From assembly GCF_027409185.1 (NCBI RefSeq), contig NC_084461.1, positions 189,926,501 through 189,990,500 on the forward strand: DNA of 64,000 nt, written 5' to 3'. Origin of the DNA: Cynocephalus volans. Its lineage: Eukaryota; Chordata; Mammalia; Dermoptera; Cynocephalidae. Under the pieces are notes generated by a model, which was given only the letters and a program-made list of their open reading frames with translations, was not told the origin of the DNA and did not search any database. This document shows positions 2,400 through 61,991 of the stretch, in pieces. The number at the start of each line of letters is the position of its first letter. Positions within the stretch are counted from its first letter, which is position 1. A program made the translations under genes and the position numbers.

Positions 2400-3650
2400 A
2401 ACTACTGTAAGGATTTAAATGGTTTAAGCTAACTCAAATTTTGCCCAATTCCTGACATCAATATTAGATTTATAGTTTCCTTTTTTTCCTGAGAAAATAA
2501 ATGTTCGGAGACTTATAGTTTAATTATAGTAACAAATAGTTGTTACAGTGAGATCTGCACACACATACAGAATTATTATATTTAAATTCATACAGAATAT
2601 TTACATTTTAAAGTTATACTTTTGAAATGAGAAGTTGAAAAACAGCTTAAGTTTTACAACAAAGAAAAGAAAAATATACAAGACAGGAATAGTCAACAGT
2701 AAAAACACAGCTATCTATTCGTGATATAACATGGAGACTCTTCATCAGAAAGCTTCATCTTCTTGATCTGATTGTCCAAATCATTAAAATATGGAGGATC
2801 AGTGCTATTTTGCCTGAAATTGTTTGGCGGGACCATAGACTAACGTTTTCGAGAGCAAATCCAAGCCATTTGAATCCACGTTTTTGACATGGGATGCGAG
2901 GCTTCCTGGTTTCCACTTGGGAAATGTATTCTTATAGTCCTATAAAGATTCCACTTCTGGCCACACTTCATTATTAGGACTGCCCAAAGCTCTGAAAATC
3001 CTGAAGAGTTGATGAAATTCTGAATCCTCATGAAAAAGTGGTTTCTTTGTTGCTAATTCTGCAAATATGGTTCCTATACTCCAGATGTCAACTAGGGTTG
3101 TGTAACCAGCTGACCCTCTTTTGGCAAGGCCAAAAGCAGCCAGTTTAATTGTTCCTTTGTCATCAATCAATAAATTTTGAGGTTTCAGGTCTCTGTGAAG
3201 AACCCTTCTAGAGTGACAAAACACAATCCCCTGTAGAATTTGGTACAAATAACTCCTAATGAGTGAAGAATCCATGAACTGACCAGAAGGTATACAGTCC
3301 AAGTATTTCTTGAGATCCATGAAAAGAAATTCAAAGATGAGATACAACCTGGAATCTTGCATAAGCACATCTTGAAGACTGACTGTATTTAGATGATGAA
3401 GTTCTTTTAACAGAGAAATCTCCCAAATTGCAGTACTAGGAACCTCTTCCTCTCCACTTTCTAATCTGATTTTCTTCATGGCTACCACGTGACCTGTAGT
3501 TTTGTGTCTATCCTTATATACAACTCCATAGTACCTTCCCCAGTTTTCTCTATTTTGGTATAATCTTCCACAGTTAATCAATAGGTATAGTAGATCCTGC
3601 TTATTATCTTGCGGTGGCCACTGCGACAGTTACCAGGTCCGTGTCACTCC
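2400..3650 (-). pseudogene. Processed pseudogene of CDK1 (cyclin-dependent kinase 1)
   Basis: On the minus strand this reads as an intronless copy of CDK1 mRNA: 5' UTR (about 3590-3650), coding region (3580 down to about 2745) and a 3' UTR with the run 'ctcactgtaacaactattt' near 2555. Kinase landmarks survive: VAMKKIR with the ATP-binding lysine, PSTAIWE (the PSTAIRE helix with R changed to W), [20 protein letters not shown], and [13 protein letters not shown]. It cannot encode a kinase. The start ATG is GTG. A 1-base loss in the glycine loop shifts the first 15 codons. DFG is AFG. About 25 codons of the activation segment, including the T-loop threonine and the WYRSPE region, are deleted. 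A CAG codon after VWPEVESL is TAG, and the C-terminal region is partly deleted. No tail or target duplication could be defined, so the 3' limit near 2400 is approximate. It is an L1-mediated retrocopy by inference. Confidence 0.93.
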
Positions 3651-4215
3651 TTTCTTCAACTCCAAGAGCCCACTTGCAGAAATTTAAAACCAATGGTATT
3701 TATTTGTGTGGTTCTTTGATGTGGAATGTATCAGATGTCTTGGTAGACTTCAGATAGTGTTACGTTCCATTTTATTCCCTTTTAGAGTTGGAAAAGTTCA
3801 ATTCCATTCATCTCTAAGACTAATAAGATTTGCTATTTTGTGCCCCTGGCATGTTTTTATTTTAAATTATTAAGAAAAAGTCTCCATTCAATGCCAAGTG
3901 TGTCCATTCAATGACACTTGGTACTACTGGAACTAAGATGATGAAAGCAGTAAATGTGATGAGTTTTGCATGGGTCATTATTGGAGAAAAAGATGGAACT
4001 ACTAACCAGTAGTTTGGACCTCAGTTTCCTTATATGTATTAAAGACTGCAGGACTCTTGTGTCCTGAGCACTTGCTATGTATCAGGCTCAGTGCGAAGCA
4101 TTATTTGCTGTCACTGGGTAAGTTCTTATAGTAACAGGGCACCCACTTTGAGGAGTACTCTATTTAGACTATAAGCTCTGTGAGGGCAGATATTTTGTTT
4201 GTTTTATTCACCAAC
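3651..4215. other. No gene seen
   Basis: AT-rich sequence without coding potential. Around 4030-4200 it has weak resemblance to old LINE/SINE ends ('gagcacttgctatgtatcaggctcag' type words), but no firm boundary. Confidence 0.4.
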
Positions 4216-6399: not shown

Positions 6400-7100
6400 C
6401 ATTCATTCTTTTTCAACACTTATTTATTGATTGCTTTTGCCATGTTTCAGGCACAGTTTTAGGTGAGGATATTTTGATGAATATAAGCAGCCAAAAGCTT
6501 TGCCCTCAAGGAGCAAATATTATAATTATCAACAGTCTAACCAACCAACCCAGCAACAAACAAAATGAATGAATGAATAAATAATAGAAAGGTTTTAGAA
6601 GTGAAGATTGCTATGGAAAAAGTGAAAAAGAAAAGCGGGGGGGGGGGGCGAGTGCTGGGAAGACAGGTGTTGTGATTTTAAATCAGGGATCAGAGAAAGC
6701 CTCACTGAGAAGGTGACATTTGAGCAAAGGCCTGAAGGAGGGAGGGAGCTGGCTGTGTGGGTGAGAGGAAGAGCCATCCAGGCAGAGGGAACAGCCAGTG
6801 CAGAGGCCCCAAGGAGGGAGCCTCCCTGCTGTGTGCTAGGGACAGAGTGAGCAAGAGAGTGTGGGAGGAGGTGAGTTGGTGAGATCATGGGGGCAGCCTG
6901 CATAGCGCCTTGTAGACCACTCTAAAGTCATTAGCTTCTTTTCTAAGCAAAGTAGAGTGACAGCAGGAGTAACAGGATCTGATTTTTAAATTTTGTTTTA
7001 TTTTTAGCAGGATCACTTCACCTGCTGTGTTGAGGATAGATTGCAGGGAGTCAAGGGCAAAGGCAGAGAGACCAGTTAGGAAGCAGTTACAGTGATCCTG
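6400..7100 (+). mobile_element. Old interspersed repeat (family not named), with poly-G tract
   Basis: It shares phrases with the copy at 1361-1790: 'gagaaggtgacatttgagc', 'ccaggcagagggaacagcca', then 'cactctaaagtcattagctt'. A run of about ten G lies near 6637-6648. A GAAT/AAAT short tandem tract is at 6563-6585. Confidence 0.55.
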
Positions 7101-7518
7101 GGGAGAGAAGATGTGGGCTTGTCTGGGGTGCTAGCTGTAGAGGTGAGAAGAAGTGTTTGGATTCCGGATGTATTTTGGAGGCTGAGCCAACAGGATTTGA
7201 TGGATTGTGTGGTTTGTCAGTAAAATGCTCTAAGGAAAACAAATGTTTTGCTGCCTCTGTAGGAATGGCTGCTAAGTGTTTGACATATTGGGACAAGATC
7301 AATTTGTTCATAGGTAATGGCTGCTGTTGGGCTGGTACCCAGATTGTCAGATGAATTGACCTTCACCTGCTGGTGCCTCATGGTCCATCATCTCAGGCTT
7401 GGAAGAGGAAGAAGATGCTGATAATGATAACAGTTAACATTGACTGAGAACGTCATGCCAGAACTGTCCTTACCACTCATATTTCGTTTAGTAGACTGAT
7501 AATCTTTGTTACATATTT
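7101..7518. other. No gene seen; 5' flank of the VNTR element
   Basis: Unassigned sequence ending in 'acatattt', directly followed by the 5' copy of the target duplication of the VNTR retroelement. Confidence 0.5.
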
Positions 7519-7532
7519 AAAAACTTTTTTTG
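7519..7532 (+). repeat. 5' target-site duplication of the VNTR element
   Basis: 'aaaaactttttttg' matches 'aaaaacctttttttg' at 9640-9654 except for one extra C. It sits directly after 'attt', giving a canonical L1-endonuclease insertion site. Confidence 0.75.
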
Positions 7533-9117
7533 TGCACACTGAGCCAGTGCTTCAGGGCCCGCCCGGGGACCCGAGGCAAGGAGAAGGGAAATGGACCTCT
7601 CTCCCACAACCAGGCATACTGAGCCAGCACTTCAGGGCCCACCCGGGGACCTGAGGCATGGAGAAGGGGACTGGACCTGTCTCCCACAACCAGGCACACT
7701 GAGCCAATGCTTCAAGGCCCACCCGGGAACCTGAGGTATGGAGAAGGGGACTGGACCTCTCTCCTACAACCAGGCACACCACGCCAACACCTTGGGCCCC
7801 ACCCAGGGACCCAGGCCATGGAGAAGGGGACCGGACCACCCTCACACAACCAGGCACAACATGCTAGCACCTCGGAGCCCACCCAGGGACCAGGGGTATG
7901 GAGAAGGGGACCGGACCTCTCTCCCACAACCAGGTACACCATACCAGAGCTTCAGGGCCCTCCCAGGGACCCGAGGCATGGATAAGGGGAACAGACCCCC
8001 CTCCCACAACCAGGCATACTGAGCCAGCGCCTTTGGGCCCACCCAGGGACCCGGGGTATGGAAAAGGGGACCGGACCACCCTCCCACAACCAGGCACAAC
8101 ATGCCAGCAACTTGGAGCCCACCCAGGGACCTGGGGCAAGGAGAAGCAGAATGTTCCTCTCTCCCACAACCAGGCACACTGTGCCAGTGCTTCAGGGCCC
8201 ACCTGGGGACTAAGGCATGGAGAAGGGGACTGGATCTCTCTCCCACAACCAGGCACATGATGCCAGCACCTCAGAACCCACCCGGGGACCTGAGGCATGG
8301 AGAAGGGGACCGGACCTCTTTCCCACAACCAGGCACACCAAGCCAGTGCCTCGGGGCCTGTCCACGGTCCTGGGGCATGGAGAAGGGGATCAGACCACCC
8401 TCCCACAACCAGGCACACCATGCCATCACCTCAGAGCCCACCCAGGGACCCAGGATGTGGAGAAGGGGACCAGACCTCTCTCCCACAACCAGGCACACCA
8501 AGCCAGCACCTTGGGTCCCACCCAGTGACCTGAGGCATGGAACCAGGAACCGGGCCCTACTCCCACAAGGCACACCATGCCAGTACCTCGGGGCCCACCC
8601 AGGGACCCAAGGCAAGGAGAAGGGGACTGGACCTCTCTCCCACAACCAGGGACACTGTGCCAGCACCTCGGGGACCACCCGGCCCAGAGGCATGCAGAAG
8701 GGGACGGGCCCTCTCTCCCACAATCAGGTACACCAAACCAGTGCCTCAGGTGCCACCTAGTGACCTGAGGTATGGAGCTAGGGACTGGACCCTCTTCCCA
8801 CACCAGGTACAAAACGCCAGCACCTTGGGGCCCACCTGGGTACCGGAGGTATGGAGGAGGGGACCGGACCCTCCTCCCACAACCAGGCACATGGCGCCAG
8901 TGCCTTGGGGCTCACCCAGAGACCTGGGGCATGGAGAAGGGGGCCAGACCACCTTCCCTCAACCAGGCACACTGTGCCCGCACCTCCCGCCCAGGGATCC
9001 AGGACATGGAGAAGGGGACTGGACCCCTCTCCCATAACTAGGCACATGGCGCCAGCACCTTGGGGCCTGCCCAGGGACCAGAGGCATGGAGAAGGGGACC
9101 AAACCTACCCCACAACT
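7533..9117 (+). repeat. Minisatellite/VNTR, about 20 copies of an ~80-bp unit
   Basis: The unit can be followed by its recurring word 'ctcccacaaccaggcac' at about 7603, 7681, 7761, 7841, 7921, 8001, 8081, 8161, 8240, 8320, 8400, 8480, 8559, 8638, 8717, 8798, 8875, 8955, 9030 and 9109. Spacing is close to 80 bp, with small indels in the last third. Each unit also holds 'gcccacccagggacc' and 'atggagaaggggac'. The unit is GC-rich and has few stop codons in any frame. Because 80 is not a multiple of 3, the reading frame rotates from unit to unit, so the long overlapping open frames on both strands are a compositional artefact. Confidence 0.95.
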
Positions 9118-9360
9118 AGGCATACCACCAGCACCAAGGAGCACACCAAAAACAGCACCTCCATGTGGGTGGTCCACCACAGCTACCACAATAACCATGG
9201 CTGCTGCAAAAGTGGCTAGACGCCACAACCACCGTGTAGATGGTCCGCCAACCACTGGAGTGCATTGACACAAGGAGAGTCACCAGCGGAGACAAAGAAA
9301 AGAAGAGATGTCTCTTTCCACAAAACCCATTTCAGAGTGACAGAAGAAACATCTGCTCTA

Positions 9361-9432
9361 TGATAATATTGGGGGACCTGATCACATCTCTCAGCATTGT
9401 CAGATCATCTAGGCAACAAATTAACAGAGTAA
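9361..9432 (+). mobile_element. L1 ORF2 (endonuclease-region) fragment inside the composite element
   Basis: 'gggacctgatcac', 'cagatcatctaggcaa' and 'acagag.aac' align with the endonuclease region of the full-length L1 in this window (about 58345-58412). The 16-mer 'cagatcatctaggcaa' and the 10-mer 'ggggacctga' are identical in both. The orientation is the same as the host element. Confidence 0.8.
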
Positions 9433-9654
9433 CCATTATTCTTTCAGAAGGAGAGACGTCGTCTAGGGCAATTAAAGGGGGGAGGGGGAGAGAATGAGGG
9501 AAGGGGACAAGCGGCATCAAGAATAGTTACAATTTGTAACAATATATATGCTAGTAATATTGATTTAATCAACGTATCACAGTGTTCAACCCCAAAATAT
9601 GTATAATCGATTTTGATTCAATAAATAAAATAAATTAAAAAAAACCTTTTTTTG
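9433..9654 (+). mobile_element. 3' end, A tail and 3' target duplication of the composite element
   Basis: A G-rich stretch ('aaaggggggagggggagaga') is followed by A/T-rich sequence ending 'attcaataaataaaataaat', then eight A and the target duplication. The end resembles the 3' terminus of the young L1 at 61950 ('gacaaaataaaattaaaa'), as expected if the L1 reverse transcriptase recognises it. 'AATAAA' words near 9620 could act as polyadenylation signals. Confidence 0.65.
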
Positions 9655-29939: not shown

Positions 29940-30660
29940 TCCTTCATTTACCACACTGTTAATGAGACCCTGCTGTGCCAGGGGCTTGGCATGCAAGGAC
30001 AAGGGAAAAACAGACATGGTCCTGCCCTCATGAAACTCACGGTCCCTTGGTGATGGAGAGATGGACAAAACCCAGTGTGGACAAACAAATATGTGGTGAT
30101 GAATGTGCTGAGTGTTGTGAAAGAAATAAGAAGAATAATACAGATGGATGGTGGGCAGGCCAGCTTTGGATGGGACTGTCAGGGAAGCCTGGCATAGGAC
30201 ATTCCATTTTTTTTTTCTGGCTGGTATAGGAATCGAACCCAGGACCTTGGTGTTAATCAGCATCACACTCTAACCAGCTGAGCTCACCAGCCAGCCCTTG
30301 GGATGGGACATTTCTGCCAAGATGAGCAGGACAATGGGAAACCAGGCATAGGAAGAGCAGGGGGAAGGGTGTTCCAGGTGGAGGGTATAGTATGTGCAAA
30401 GACCTGAGGTGGGAAATCAAGGAATAGGGAAAAAAGTGCTGTGGGGCTTTAGCGACATGGACAAGGGGAAGAGTGTGCAGGTTGCGTCTGGAGAGGGGGG
30501 CAGGGACAGATCATGTGGGGCCTCAAAGGTTTGGATATGATTTTTATGGCAAAGTTTTAGGTGCTTGAATAAAATGATCAGCTTTCGTTCCTGAAAGATC
30601 ACTGTGACTACAGGGTGAAAACATCGTCCTGCAGAGTTTAGGTGATTGGACAAAAGTGCT
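29940..30660 (+). mobile_element. Old interspersed repeat interrupted by a young SINE
   Basis: 'gagaccctgctgtgccaggg', 'tggtcctgccctcatgaaac', then after the SINE 'gtgttccaggtggagggta', 'gtgcaaagacctgaggtgg', 'tcatgtggggcctcaaagg' follow the family of 1361-1790. The SINE lies at 30207-30298. Confidence 0.6.
30207..30298 (-). mobile_element. tRNA-Ile-derived SINE (CYN-type), minus strand
   Basis: Read on the minus strand: 'agctcagctggttagagtg' (A box), 'gctgattaacaccaaggtcc' (anticodon arm of tRNA-Ile type), 'gggttcgattcc' (B box), then 'agccag' and an A tail. It is a short monomeric form. Possible diverged duplication: 'ggcataggacatt' (30191-30203) and 'gggatgggacatt' downstream (30300-30312). 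Confidence 0.88.
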
Positions 30661-55214: not shown

Positions 55215-55220
55215 GGAGAG

Positions 55221-55236
55221 TTTCAAGATGGCGGCG
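55221..55236 (+). promoter_or_regulatory. YY1-like site at L1 start
   Basis: 'tttcaagatggcggcg' contains the YY1 core 'AAGATGGCGGC' a few bases from the 5' end, the position where human L1 has its YY1 site that sets the transcription start. Confidence 0.7.
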
Positions 55237-55578
55237 GCTGCGGCGGCTGGCGCGGAGTAGCTGAGGTGGAAAAGGTGGCCACTGGGCCTCAGGCAGCCGG
55301 GGAAACTTGTGGACCTTTCTCTGGCCATCTCTTAAGGGAGGACTGCTGCTGCTGGCCGGTCGTGGGGGCTCAACGCCACTTTGCCCCCGGCAGGAGAGGC
55401 TGCCTCATTTACAGGCAACAGCTTTGAAGTGTGGAGCAGGAAAAGAACTGATTCTTAGCTGCAAAAGTGAGTCTTGAAACAGGGAACACGGCGCCAGGGC
55501 TCCTGTGGATGCAGCCAGGATCCCGGAGGCTGGGGCCGCACTGAAGGCGGCCAGCTGCCCTATCCAGGATTCGAGGTT

Positions 55579-55857
55579 TCAGGCCGGCATTAAAGAAGAC
55601 TCCTGGGAGCGCCCGAGCGGCGCCGCGACTGAACAGCCCGAGGCGGCAGCGCCGAGAACACGGAAGGCAACAAACCAGAGACAGAGCGAGCGCCCGACCT
55701 GGCACAGCACTGTGAGTGATCCCTGGCAAAGCTCTGTTCGGGGGGTGGATGCCCACGCGGCTCCCGCCTGCACCACCAGGCCACTCACTGCCCCGGTGCT
55801 GCCTCCATTTTCCCAGGTGCGGGCAGCTCCGCCCTGCTCGGCCATCACTGAGCCCAT
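55579..55857 (-). other. Antisense ORF in L1 5' UTR (ORF0-like position)
   Basis: A 92-aa frame starting with a true ATG (reverse of 'cat' at 55855-55857), beginning MGSVMAEQGG. It lies antisense in the 5' UTR, where primate L1 carries ORF0, but I see no sequence resemblance to ORF0. It may be only a product of GC-rich composition. Confidence 0.3.
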
Positions 55858-56752
55858 TTGCTTGGCTTGGCGCGGGGCTTTCCGGACCCTGCGGGCCGAC
55901 CTCCTCTCCCACTCCCTCCACGGTTCTCTGGCAGGGCTGGGGGTGTGGGGCGTCCCGACCAGTTTTGGGAGGGCTAGGAAGTACGGGCGGGCCGACTGTC
56001 ACTCCACCACACCCTGGACTCCGGCCCCGGTAAACTTCCTGTTACTGGGAGGCAGATACCATCTCTGCGACCACCAGTTTGGAAAAAAGCCTAACGAATT
56101 TCTGGTTGGGAATAGTGTGGTAGGAGAGTTCCCAGGTCTGCTTGAACCTGCCGGAGAGCAGGCTGCAGGCGGGCACTAGACTTGGTTTATACCGGGGGGA
56201 TACAAAGGTGAACAAGACCCGAGAAAGATCTACACAGTGCTACAAAGGCACCCAGAGAGACTGGTCGTCTGTGCCTAGCAGAAACCTGGTAGACTTCCTG
56301 GGCGAGGCGGTGCTGAGCAGGGTCTTGAAGGCCCAGCTGATAGACGAGGGGTGCAGAAGACACGCCCCAACCCAGCACAGTGTGCACAGAGGGGGGAGAC
56401 GTGCGGCCAGGGAGGCGGAGACTCGATAGAAACCACACACCCGGTGGGGTCGCCACTGCACGATCTAACAGCCTGGGCCAGAGCACACTGAACGGGGAGA
56501 AGTCCTGTACAGAAAGTGAAAGCTCAACAGAGATCACACACCCTGTGGTACGTGATCCACCAGCCCAGCAGAGTACAAGCTGACCAGAAAGGTGGATCCC
56601 CGGAGAAGCCCAAGACCCGAGGCAACCACACACACAAGACACTAGAGGCCAACTGAGCAGTCACAGCGGGAGCCATACCAAATTGGCAACCACAGCAACA
56701 TCCTAGTTAGTCATTAGTCTTAAACCGGTGGACTGTGAAACCCCCTGCCACA

Positions 56753-57733
56753 ATGAATAAACACCAAAAAAAAGACACCAGAAATACAAAAAATCAAGAA
56801 AGTACACCACCAAAAGTTAATAAATCTCATACTCTAGATCCTATAGAACAAGAAGCCCTTGAAATAACTGATAAGGAATTTCGAGTGATAATTCTAAGGA
56901 AACTGAATGAGATACAAGAAAACTCAGCTAGACATCATGATGAAATGAGGAAAAGTATACAGGATCTGAAAGAGGAAATATACAAGGAAATCAATGTCCT
57001 GAAAAAAAATGTAGCAGAACTTGCTGAACTGAAGAAGTTATTCAGCGAAATAAAAAACACAACGGAGAGTTTAACCAGCAGGCTTGTCGAAGTTGAAGAG
57101 AGAACCTCTGAACTTGAAGATGGGCTGTTTGAAATAACACAAGCAGACAAAAAGAAAGAAAAAAGAATCAAGGACATGGAAGAAAATCTGAGAGAGATAT
57201 CAGACAACCTCAAGCGCTCAAATATCCGAGTCATGGGTATTCCAGAAGGGGAGGAAAATGGAGATTCCATTGAAAACATATTCAACAAAATAGAGGCAGA
57301 AAACTTCCCAGGTATAGGAAAAATCACAGATCTTCAGATCCAGGAAGCTCAACGATCTCCAAACGTATTCAACCCAAAAAGGCCTTCTCCAAGACATGTC
57401 ATAGTCAAATTGGCAAAACTCAGAGACAAAGAGAGAATCTTAAAAGCTGCAAGAGAGAAGCGTCAAATCACCTATAAGGGAGCCCCAATCAGGTTAACAT
57501 CAGACTTTTCATCACAAACCCTAAAAGCTAGAAAGGAATGGGATGATATTTTCAAAATACTAAAAGACAAAGATTGCCAGCCAAGAATACTCTACCCTGC
57601 AAGGCTATCCTTCCGAAATGAGGGGCAAATAGTATATTTCTCAGACAAACAAAAACTGCGGGAGTTCACTACCACAAGACCACCCTTACAAGAAATCCTC
57701 AAGGGAGTACTGGGTTTGGTTCCTGAAAAATAA
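56753..57733 (+). CDS. L1 ORF1p, RNA-binding chaperone
   Basis: 326 aa from the first ATG (the open frame extends six codons upstream to a GTG, but ATG at 56753 is preferred). It forms the ribonucleoprotein with L1 RNA in the cytoplasm. The N-terminus is basic and lysine-rich (MNKHQKKDTRNTKN). A long coiled coil follows, about residues 48-150, with heptad-like Leu/Ile spacing (trimerisation). The RRM begins at about 155 with SNIRVMGIPEGEENGD, and the C-terminal domain carries REKRQITYKGAPIRL, PARLSF and FTTTRPPLQEIL. Length is close to human ORF1p (338 aa). It precedes ORF2 by 187 bp. No frameshift or stop seen. Confidence 0.95.
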   Translation: MNKHQKKDTRNTKNQESTPPKVNKSHTLDPIEQEALEITDKEFRVIILRKLNEIQENSARHHDEMRKSIQDLKEEIYKEINVLKKNVAELAELKKLFSEIKNTTESLTSRLVEVEERTSELEDGLFEITQADKKKEKRIKDMEENLREISDNLKRSNIRVMGIPEGEENGDSIENIFNKIEAENFPGIGKITDLQIQEAQRSPNVFNPKRPSPRHVIVKLAKLRDKERILKAAREKRQITYKGAPIRLTSDFSSQTLKARKEWDDIFKILKDKDCQPRILYPARLSFRNEGQIVYFSDKQKLREFTTTRPPLQEILKGVLGLVPEK

Positions 57734-57920
57734 CTACCACTGCCATAAAAACCTAAGAAAAATCTAAACCCGCTAGTACAATAAAAATGGCATTCATGAA
57801 GAGAAAACAAGCTAACAAAAACACTATCTACAACCTAAGGAACCAACAAACAAAGAAACCAAACAGTAAATCAGAAAGCAAGGAACAAAAGACACCTAAG
57901 ACAACCAAACAACCAATAAA
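57734..57920 (+). other. L1 inter-ORF spacer
   Basis: 187 A-rich bases between ORF1 stop and ORF2 start, longer than the ~63-bp human spacer. ORF2 would be translated by reinitiation or an internal entry, as in other L1s. Confidence 0.8.
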
Positions 57921-60900
57921 ATGCTAAGAATAAATCAACACCTTTCAATAACAACTCTTAATGTTAAAGGCTTAAATTCCCCAATTAAAAGACACAGACT
58001 GGCTGACTGGATCAAAAAGCAGGACCCAACTATATGCTGCCTACAAGAGACCCACCTCACCCATAAAGATTCACACAGACTAAGAGTAAAAGGATGGAAA
58101 AAGATTTACCATGCAAACAGAAAAGAAAAACGAGCTGGAGTGGCTATTCTTATATCTGACAAAATAGACTTTAAACTAAAAACCATAAAAAGAGACAATG
58201 AGGGACACTACTTAATGATAAAAGGACTGATCCATCAAGAAGACATAACAATCATAAATATGTACGCACCCAATGTTGGAGCAGCCAGATTTATAAAACA
58301 AACTCTATTAGACCTAAAGAAGGAAATAGACACTAATACCATAATAGCAGGGGACCTGAACACTCCACTGTCAATATTAGACAGATCATCTAGGCAAAGA
58401 ATCAGTAGAGAAACACAAGATCTAAACAAGACTCTAGACCAATTGGAATTGGCAGATATCTACAGAACATTCCACCCAACAACCTCAGAATATTCATTCT
58501 TCTCATCAGCACATGGATCATTCTCCAAGATAGATCACATATTAGGTCACAAATCAAGTCTCAATAAATTCAAAAAAATTGGAATTATCCCATGTATCTT
58601 CTCAGACCACAATGGATTAAAACTAGAAATTAATAACAAACAAAACTCTGGAAACTATACAAACACATGGAAATTAAACAGCATTCTACTTAATGACATA
58701 TGGGTCCAAGAAGAAATCAAGCAGGAAATCAAAAAGTTTATTGAAACTAATGAAAACAATGATACATCATACCAAAACCTGTGGGATACTGCAAAAGCAG
58801 TATTGAGGGGAAAATTTATTGCATTAAATGCTCACTTCAGAAGAATGGAAAGATGGCAAGTGAACAACCTAACACTTCACCTTAAAGAACTAGAAAAACA
58901 AGAACAATCCAATCCTAAAGTTAGCAGACGGAAAGAAATCATTAAGATCAGAGCAGAACTGAATGAAACTGAAAACCAAAAAACAATTCAAAAGATCAAC
59001 GAATCAAAAAGTTGGTTTTTTGAAAAGATAAATAAAATTGACAAACCATTAGCATGGCTAACAAAAAAAAGAAGAGAGAAGACTCAAATAACAAAAATTA
59101 GAAATGAAAAAGGCGATATTACAACTGATTCATCTGAAATACAAGGAATCATTCGAGACTACTATAAACAACTATACGCCAACAAATTTGAAAATCTGGA
59201 GGAAATGGATAAATTTCTGGACACACACAAGCTCCCAAAACTGAACCGTGAAGACGTAGAAAATTTGAACAGACCAATAACAATAAAGGAGATTGAAGCT
59301 GTTATCAGAAGGCTCCCAACAAAGAAAAGCCCAGGACCAGATGGATTCACAGCAGAATTTTACCAAACATTCAAAGAGGAATTGACACCGATTCTTTACA
59401 AACTATTCCAAAAGATTGAAACGGACGCAAATCTCCCAAACTCATTCTATGAAGCAAACATCATCCTGATACCAAAACCAGGTAAAGATATAACCAAAAA
59501 AGAAAACTACAGGCCGATATCCTTGATGAATATAGATGCAAAAATCCTCACTAAAATACTAGCAAACAGAATACAGCAACACATACGAAAAATTATTCAT
59601 CACGATCAAGTGGGATTCATCCCAGGGATGCAAGGTTGGTTCAACATACGCAAATCAATAAATGTGATACACCATATTAATAAACTCAAACACAAGGACC
59701 ATATGATCATCTCTATAGATGCTGAAAAAGCATTTGATAAAGTTCAGCACTCATTCATGACAAAGACCCTCTATAAGTTAGGTATAGAGGGAAAGTATCT
59801 CAACATAATTAAAGCCATATATGCCAAACCCACTGCCAATATCATCCTGAATGGGGAAAAGCTGAAAGCTTTTCCTTTAAGAACAGGCACTAGACAAGGA
59901 TGTCCACTCCCACCACTCCTATTCAACATAGTGTTGGAAGTACTAGCCAGAGCAATCAGAGAAGAGAAGGAAATAAAGGGCATCCAGATTGGAAAAGATG
60001 AAGTCAAACTGTCCCTGTTTGCAGATGACATGATCCTATATATCGAACAGCCTAAAACCTCTACAAAAAAACTGTTGGAATTGATAAATGATTTCAGCAC
60101 AGTAGCAGGATACAAAATCAACACACAAAAATCAGTAGCATTTCTTTTCTCCAATAGTGAACATGCAGAAGGAGAAATCAAGAAAGCCTGCCCATTTACA
60201 ATAGCCACCAAAAAAATAAAATACTTAGGAATTGAGTTAACCAAGGAGGTGAAAAATCTCTATAATGAGAACTGCAAACCACTGCTGAGAGAAATTAGAG
60301 AGGATACAAGAAGATGGAAAGATATCCCATGCTCTTGGATTGGAAGAATCAACATAGTGAAAATGTCCATACTACCCAAAGTGATATACAAATTCAATGC
60401 AATCCCCATCAAAATTCCAAAGACATTTTTCTCAGAAATGGAAAAAACTATTCAGACATTTATATGGAACAATAAAAGACCACGAATAGCCAAAGCAATG
60501 CTCAGCAAAAAAAATAAAGCTGGAGGCATAACACTACCTGACTTTAAGCTATACTACAAAGCTATAATAACCAAAACAGTATGGTACTGGCATAAAAACA
60601 GACACACTGACCAATGGAATAGAATAGAGAATCCAGAAATCAACCCTCACACTTACTGCCATCTGATCTTTGACAAAGGCACCAAGCCTATTCACTGGGG
60701 AAGGGACTGCCTCTTCAGCAAGTGGTGCTGGGATAACTGGATATCGTTATGCAGGAGAATGAAACTAGATCCATACCTCTCACCATATACTAAAATCAAC
60801 TCAAAATGGATTAAGGATTTAAATATACACCCTGAGACAATAAAACTTCTTAAAGAAAACATAGGGGAAACACTTCAGGAAATAGGACTGGGCACAGACT

Positions 60901-61748
60901 TCATGAATACGACCCCAAAAGCACGGGCAACCAAAGGAAAAATAAACAAATGGGATTATATCAAACTAAAAAGCTTCTGCACAGCAAAAGAAACAATTAA
61001 AAGAGTTAAAAGACAACCAACAGAGTGGGAGAAAATATTTGCAAAATATACATCTGACAAAGGATTAATATCCAGAATATATAAGGAACTCAAACAACTT
61101 TACAAGAAGAAAACAAGCAACCCAATTAAAAAATGGGCAAAAGAGCTAAGTAGGCATTTCTCTAAGGAAGATATCCAAATGGCCAACAGACATATGAAAA
61201 AATGCTCAACATCACTCAGCATCCGGGAAATGCAAATCAAAACCACACTGAGATACCATCTAACCCCAGTTAGGATGGCTAAAATCCAAAAGACTATGAA
61301 CGATAAATGCTGGCGAGGCTGCGGAGAAAAAGGAACTCTCATACATTGTTGGTGGGACTGCAAAATGGTGCAGCCTCTATGGAAAATGGTATGGAGGTTC
61401 CTTAAACAATTGCAAATAGATCTACCATACGACCCAGCCATCCCACTGTTGGGAATATACCCAGAGGAATGGAAATCATCAAGTCGAAGGTATACCTGTT
61501 CCCCAATGTTCATCGCCGCACTCTTTACAATAGCCAAGAGTTGGAACCAGCCCAAATGCCCATCATCAGATGAGTGGATACGGAAAATGTGGTACATCTA
61601 CACAATGGAATACTACTCAGCTATAAAAACGAATGAAATACTGCCATTTGCAACAACATGGATGGACCTCGAGAGAATTATATTAAGTGAAACAAGTCAG
61701 GCACAGAAAGAGAAATACCACATGTTCTCACTTATTGGTGGGAGCTAA
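57921..61748 (+). CDS. L1 ORF2p, endonuclease/reverse transcriptase
   Basis: 1275 aa, the same length as human ORF2p, uninterrupted. It nicks target DNA and reverse transcribes L1 RNA at the nick. The apurinic-type endonuclease (1-239) keeps Asn14, Glu43 (LQETHL), the GDLNTP motif near 145, KIDHI near 205 and SDHN near 230. The reverse transcriptase (about 500-770) shows [22 protein letters not shown] and the catalytic FADD at 700-703. The C-terminal Cys motif is [18 protein letters not shown] from 1130 (C-x3-C-x8-H-x3-C). Odd point: residues 661-666 read CPLPPL where most L1s have CPLSPL, so proline replaces the conserved serine at 664 (TCA to CCA). Whether that lowers activity cannot be told from sequence. 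Confidence 0.96.
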
Positions 61749-61960
61749 AAATTAATATATAAATTCACACACACACATACACACATACACACACAAACCG
61801 GGGGGGGGGGGGGGAAGAAGATATAACAACCACAATTATTTGAAGTTGATACAACAAACAAACAGAAAGGACATGGTTGGGGGGGAGGGGGGGAGGGAGA
61901 AGGGAGGGAGGTTTTGGTGATGGGGAGCATTAATCAGCTACAATGTATATCGACAAAATA

Positions 61961-61991
<31 letters not shown>
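61749..61991 (+). other. L1 3' UTR with G-rich tracts and A26 tail
   Basis: A CA-type microsatellite (61765-61795), a run of about 16 G (61799-61814) and a polypurine tract with several G3-G7 runs (61877-61912), a candidate G-quadruplex typical of L1 3' UTRs. It ends 'atcgacaaaataaaattaaa' followed by the A tail. Confidence 0.85.

Follow-up and report, generated by a model that had tools for sequence, protein, structure and literature searches.

SVA, LAVA, PVA and FVA of hominoids are non-autonomous and are mobilised by L1 in trans. The SVA2 repeats carry SVA-type repeat units, and the HAL1-type partial L1 families, likewise non-autonomous, consist of L1 parts amplified by L1 and retain ORF1. 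PMC4432496 and PMC7353768 describe VNTR composites as specific to hominoid primates; according to PMC4432496, a 5' CT-hexamer repeat and an Alu-like region are common to SVA, LAVA, PVA and FVA, and the LAVA VNTR is conserved at its ends (at most five units) and not in its interior. A dataset heading in the same paper lists SVA2MMU and SVA2NLE (the SVA2 of macaque and gibbon), a VNTR-bearing repeat outside the great apes. Tandem repeats are also present in the L1 5'UTRs of horse, mouse and rat, and L1 5'UTRs have been turned over repeatedly, according to PMC5872511. Among the literature matches listed (Dfam, Repbase and most subscription papers being outside their scope), there was no VNTR composite of a colugo or of any other non-primate mammal.

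The locus to be compared with these systems is a 2.1-kb insertion at 7519-9654 of the window, i.e. the whole 64-kb stretch of colugo DNA that was analysed. With a probability of about 75%, we read it as belonging to a non-autonomous VNTR composite retrotransposon moved by L1, of which it is a copy cut short at its 5' end. It is built of twenty 80-bp repeats, a unique part, a scrap of L1 ORF2 and an L1-type 3' end, framed by a 14/15-bp duplication, all on the + strand. The 5' target-site duplication AAAAACTTTTTTTG (7519-7532) is preceded by ...CATATTT, by eye a TT|AAAA-type site with the cut at ATTT|AAAA. It is followed by an 80-bp VNTR of about 20 units (7533-9134, from TRF and unit parsing) that breaks off at its 5' end inside a unit. 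TRF places the tandem array at 7534-9135 (period 80, 20.2 copies, 76% matches) and gives it a score of 1463, the highest among its 10 rows in the window; GC content is 0.62-0.65 in bins within the array and 0.26-0.57 in bins of the flanks. The next module (9135-9362) is the end of an L1 5'UTR: an L1 in locus L048 that continues into ORF1 is 76% identical to it across 240 columns, and, judged from that L1, the module stops about 4 nt short of the ORF1 start codon. The ORF2 scrap (9363-9434; ca. 72 bp) was assigned to the endonuclease region by tblastn and aligned to five L1 copies; the open-ORF2 L1 of the window and other L1 copies align to it there. An L1 3'UTR with a G-rich tract, AATAAA and an A-rich end (9435-9639) was recognized by alignment to the sequence after the ORF2 C-terminus of an L1 in L045. 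The 3' target-site duplication AAAAACCTTTTTTTG (9640-9654) is one C longer than the 5' copy, and its leading A's are indistinguishable from the A tail. The layout described in an earlier note on this DNA (tandem array, duplications, unique stretch, L1 ORF2 piece, A/T-rich 3' end) is thereby confirmed, as are its some 20 GC-rich repeats of ca. 80 bp and its ORF2 piece. The order of the modules also stands as the note gave it, and their limits required correction: the repeats end near 9134, and about 9135 is where the unique middle begins.

The genome (2.81 Gb in 130 contigs) was searched with 9118-9640, a check that the earlier note had proposed. This query gave 5,964 first-look candidates; all of the best 40, which were scored, were matches, scattered over many contigs and including the window copy, and the 39 others were 89-91% identical to the query. 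Four 60-base patterns were then counted genome-wide with up to 3 mismatches, each count being a lower bound and each reversed-pattern control giving 0: the internal fusion junction was present at 2,741 places, the 3' end at 1,098, a pattern near the 5' start at 347, and the border of 5' module and VNTR at 378, numbers whose ratio does not give the full-length fraction because the patterns differ in conservation. Since one 60-base fusion recurs at all of these 2,741 places, with up to 3 mismatches, the copies share a single deletion junction. The 3' consensus that served as query and template for the L1 comparisons and for the junction and 3'-end patterns was a first version, in which the loci were not all oriented; it agrees with the rebuilt 3' consensus in 695 of 715 alignment columns.

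A high GC content and a variable length are typical of minisatellite arrays, and a minisatellite lying next to L1 debris might have reached many places through segmental duplication, or as a satellite, instead of by retrotransposition. We tested for target-site duplications by comparing the paired flanks of 21 copies with 420 mismatched flank pairs at the 99% level. Fourteen copies had a duplication above this level, each with a different sequence; the window copy is one of them (aligned core CTTTTTTTG), in keeping with the duplication of 14-15 bp claimed for it. In the other seven copies, L047 among them, no duplication exceeded the 99% level in this test, as a minisatellite origin would allow. 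The 14 different duplications and the fixed 5' and 3' ends with A-rich tails and differing flanks, found at many chromosomal places, speak against it; since flanks and duplications differ between copies, we reject a satellite or segmental duplication as the means of spread and regard this explanation as extremely improbable. In 5 of the 14 copies, the duplication starts at most 2 nt from a TT|AA motif, against a background of 0.045; the window copy does not count among these five because its scored match begins at CTTTTTTTG. The insertion is thus not single copy, and dispersed copies with different duplications (14 of 21) exist, which the earlier note had named as support for an active family. 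That term holds in part: what is present is a VNTR retrotransposon with A tails, whose many copies are dispersed and have separate duplications, and present-day activity is not borne out by the 30 copies compared, which lie 1-6% from their consensus.

To define the complete element, 20 further loci of ca. 9.5 kb, picked by their similarity to the window copy, were read. All 20 have the 3' module and tandem repeats of 79-80 bp, and 16 share a common 5' start and an extra module of ca. 835 bp. The remaining four (L035, L038, L047, L050) are truncated inside the VNTR, as is the window copy. A consensus, which the earlier note had proposed for finding the full 5' end, was built of this ca. 835-bp module; the layout given in the note is right for the window copy and falls short as a description of the whole element, the first ca. 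835 bp of which were lost here by 5' truncation. The 5' module begins with TCAAGATGGCGGAATAG..., which resembles the start of an L1 5'UTR. The full element reads, in order: an L1-5'UTR-like start; a VNTR of ca. 6-29 units; the end of an L1 5'UTR; ca. 72 bp of ORF2; an L1 3'UTR; and an A-rich tail. Its 5' module, variable-length VNTR and 3' module keep this fixed order across separate insertions in 16 of the 20 further loci. The 16 full copies measure 1,894-3,698 bp, and their longest sense ATG frames span 157-328 aa; ORF1 and nearly all of ORF2 are lost. The same arrangement appears when the pattern matches on contigs C1-C4 are listed: 44, 43, 40 and 51 places were typed there, from lists holding about 100 of the 1,098, 2,741, 347 and 378 matches. 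Among the close pairs of listed places, 38 of 40 were in order and on one strand (some pairs coming from one element). Distances over the 5' module were 733-762, with a single value of 950; those over the 3' part were 212-231, but those over the VNTR 564-1,298.

Divergence from the consensus, with CpG sites excluded, averaged 0.029 (0.012-0.055) for 30 3' modules, the window copy standing at 0.055, and 0.047 (0.037-0.074) for 16 5' modules; these figures do not represent the age of the family because the copies were selected by similarity. At L039:4501-4908, a composite 5' end of ca. 90 bp lies about 400 bp upstream of the start of a complete copy, with other repeat sequence in between, and looks as if it had been split or duplicated.

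The behaviour of the VNTR could be followed by position in 13 of the 16 full copies, with whole-unit counts of 9-29 (L045, outside this set, has about 6). Identity at the same position was 0.898 in the first unit, 0.828 in the second and 0.808 in the third; the last unit had 0.883 and the one before it 0.821, and interior units showed 0.77 identity both between and within copies. Conserved ends and a variable interior are likewise a property of the LAVA VNTR (PMC4432496), and the general order is also alike (5' domain, GC-rich VNTR, variable 3' part, A tail, duplications), which could suggest descent from the hominoid composites SVA, LAVA, PVA and FVA. Against such descent, two or more tandem CT hexamers were found in 0 of the 16 full copies, no 7SL/Alu match up to E 0.1 was obtained in any of the 7 loci scanned, and the unit of the GC-rich VNTR is 80 bp instead of 30-50 bp (a comparison by unit length, without alignment to hominoid sequences). 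On these tested features, we reject hominoid SVA descent, and we hold descent to be most improbable for the hominoid composites as a whole. The element does not belong to the hominoid SVA/LAVA group because neither the CT hexamers nor the Alu domain was found; this fits the view of the earlier note that its modules differ from those of SVA, LAVA, PVA and FVA and that it arose independently.

The composite therefore stands beside several known systems. With SVA, LAVA, PVA and FVA it shares non-autonomy, an A tail, target duplications and a GC-rich VNTR that separates a 5' domain from a 3' part open to exchange; unlike them, it is without a CT-hexamer and Alu-like 5' region, its 5' and 3' parts are L1-like, and its unit is longer. 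LAVA is further similar in having L1 pieces in its 3' part. HAL1 has kept ORF1, whereas the composite is without an ORF and carries a long VNTR. The L1 subfamilies of mouse, rat and horse resemble it in the tandem repeats of their 5' region (PMC5872511); they are autonomous, whereas the composite has no ORF1 and an ORF2 cut to ca. 72 bp. It has converged on the SVA/LAVA architecture, apparently after arising separately. We prefer the name "L1-derived VNTR composite", because L1 is the source of its middle, ORF2 scrap and 3' end, and its 5' start is like that of an L1 5'UTR.

The derivation from L1 rests on several comparisons. The composite 3' part scored 83 against the sequence that follows the C-terminus of ORF2 in the L045 L1 (shuffle maximum 33), and 53, 46 and 40 against the L1 ends of L031, L041_957 and win27100 (shuffle maxima 30 each); the ends of L042, L037, L041_4804 and win61742 exceeded shuffles mainly through G-rich or A-rich tracts, and those of L026 and L040 showed no excess (2 of the 10 L1 3' ends tested against the composite 3' part). 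The first 59 bp of the 5' module scored 39 against the ORF1-bearing L1 in L043 (shuffle maximum 28). No L1 that was read has both the 5' module and ORF1, so an L1 origin of most of the 5' module, which we infer, rests on the first ca. 60 bases and on position. Among candidates for direct parentage, the young L1s read in the window and in L039, and that of L052, were rejected: their 5'UTRs are unrelated to the composite, with a start match of 12 bp and nothing above shuffles. Splicing was likewise dismissed as the source of the ORF loss, as no GT-AG signature could be seen by eye in the alignments of the ORF2 scrap.

The modules stand in L1 order, and the element could simply have arisen through internal deletion from an autonomous L1 that had the 80-bp VNTR in its 5'UTR beforehand, nothing having been assembled. 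We give this possibility somewhat less than an even chance. L1 5'UTRs with tandem repeats are known from horse, mouse and rat (PMC5872511), and the ORF1-bearing L1 of L043 (oriented 3201-3740), with its similar 5' start, has a short 5'UTR with its own repeats of ca. 93 bp (about 2.2 copies) immediately before ORF1. The arrays of L043 and L035 are, however, unlike the 80-bp unit, to which neither they nor the sequence upstream in L048 showed similarity above shuffles; compared with each other, the two arrays gave a score tied with the shuffle maximum. A query joining the composite middle to the ORF1 start of L048 returned 7,244 candidates, and the best 40 were scored. Fifteen matches span query 1-252 only and are composites; the other 25, L048 included, reach ORF1, and all of these begin at query 22-37, i.e. 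at the border of VNTR and middle. The VNTR border is hence absent from the L1s having the middle, and no L1 with an 80-bp VNTR was seen, among these 25 ORF1-bearing matches (best 40 of 7,244).

A second family also speaks against simple deletion, since in its members the 5' module of the composite is followed by a different array and a different 3' end. It was recognized in an older element in L035 (+ strand, 6570-8310, the start being approximate), here called type B: a 5' module 82% identical to that of the composite is followed by a linker, six or seven repeats of ca. 100 bp, a pyrimidine-rich end and an A tail. The periodicity of this array is based on self-alignment (167 versus a shuffle maximum of 27), and TRF gave no row for it; the repeats are unlike the 80-bp unit. 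The duplication of this element was not significant (5.8 versus a shuffled 99% level of 6.8). A query made of the 5' module end and linker gave 3,757 candidates, and all 40 that were scored span both parts; with a 221-long query from the 3' end, the 39 others among the best 40 of 1,802 begin at 1-25 and stop at 180-219. Besides L035, places on C12 near 88.13 Mb and on C4 near 131.09 Mb are in both match lists, in order and on one strand. The colugo families thus have a common 5' module with different VNTRs and 3' ends, whereas the hominoid families have a common 5' region and VNTR with different 3' ends.

For the preferred reading, a non-autonomous composite mobilised by L1, the following course can be proposed. 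A single founder without ORF1 and nearly all of ORF2 would have been amplified to at least 2,741 copies. Its ca. 835-bp 5' module presumably holds the promoter, and RNA made from it would be taken up in trans by L1 proteins, via the A tail and perhaps the L1 3' end. The target would be nicked at TT|AAAA-type sites, and target-primed reverse transcription would insert the copy, which would sometimes lose its 5' end. The A tails and the duplications in 14 of 21 copies are the footprint of such mobilisation that was seen. Since one L1-like 5' module has been joined to no fewer than two unrelated arrays and to two 3' ends, with amplification of either product, the GC-rich array itself may aid uptake by L1 or escape from silencing; with some hesitation, we suggest that L1 biology might give rise to VNTR composites repeatedly, and not in hominoids alone. 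If it was separately built, the colugo family, whose copies number in the thousands, would be to the hominoid VNTR composites what a replicate is to an experiment: traits common to both systems (conserved VNTR ends, scrambled interior, exchanged modules) could indicate what the L1 machinery or host silencing selects, and a second system would allow a test of whether the repeat array favours mobilisation.

Several other features of the window and of the L1 searches were recorded. A young L1 at 55215-61991 has an open ORF1 frame (56735-57733), an open ORF2 of 1,275 aa (57921-61748) and an A tail; it carries the 12 bp GAAACAAGTCAG on both flanks and sits within an older L1. Its presence in the window is in favour of the reading that the composite is mobilised by L1. 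The first 56 residues of its ORF1 are identical to those of the L1 in L052. On contig C30, near 69.95-70.44 Mb and near 167.96-167.98 Mb, several ORF1 matches of one region have the same frame length and scores that are identical or nearly so, and three matches are spaced by exactly 5,812 bp, which suggests locally duplicated L1 copies. On the - strand of the window, 30218-30292 gave its one tRNA-like match in Rfam, probably a tRNA-derived SINE; ARAGORN found no tRNA in the 64 kb, this place included. Also on the - strand, 2940-3581 holds an open frame of 213 aa, which by eye we take to be a fragment of a CDK1-type kinase, perhaps a processed pseudogene.
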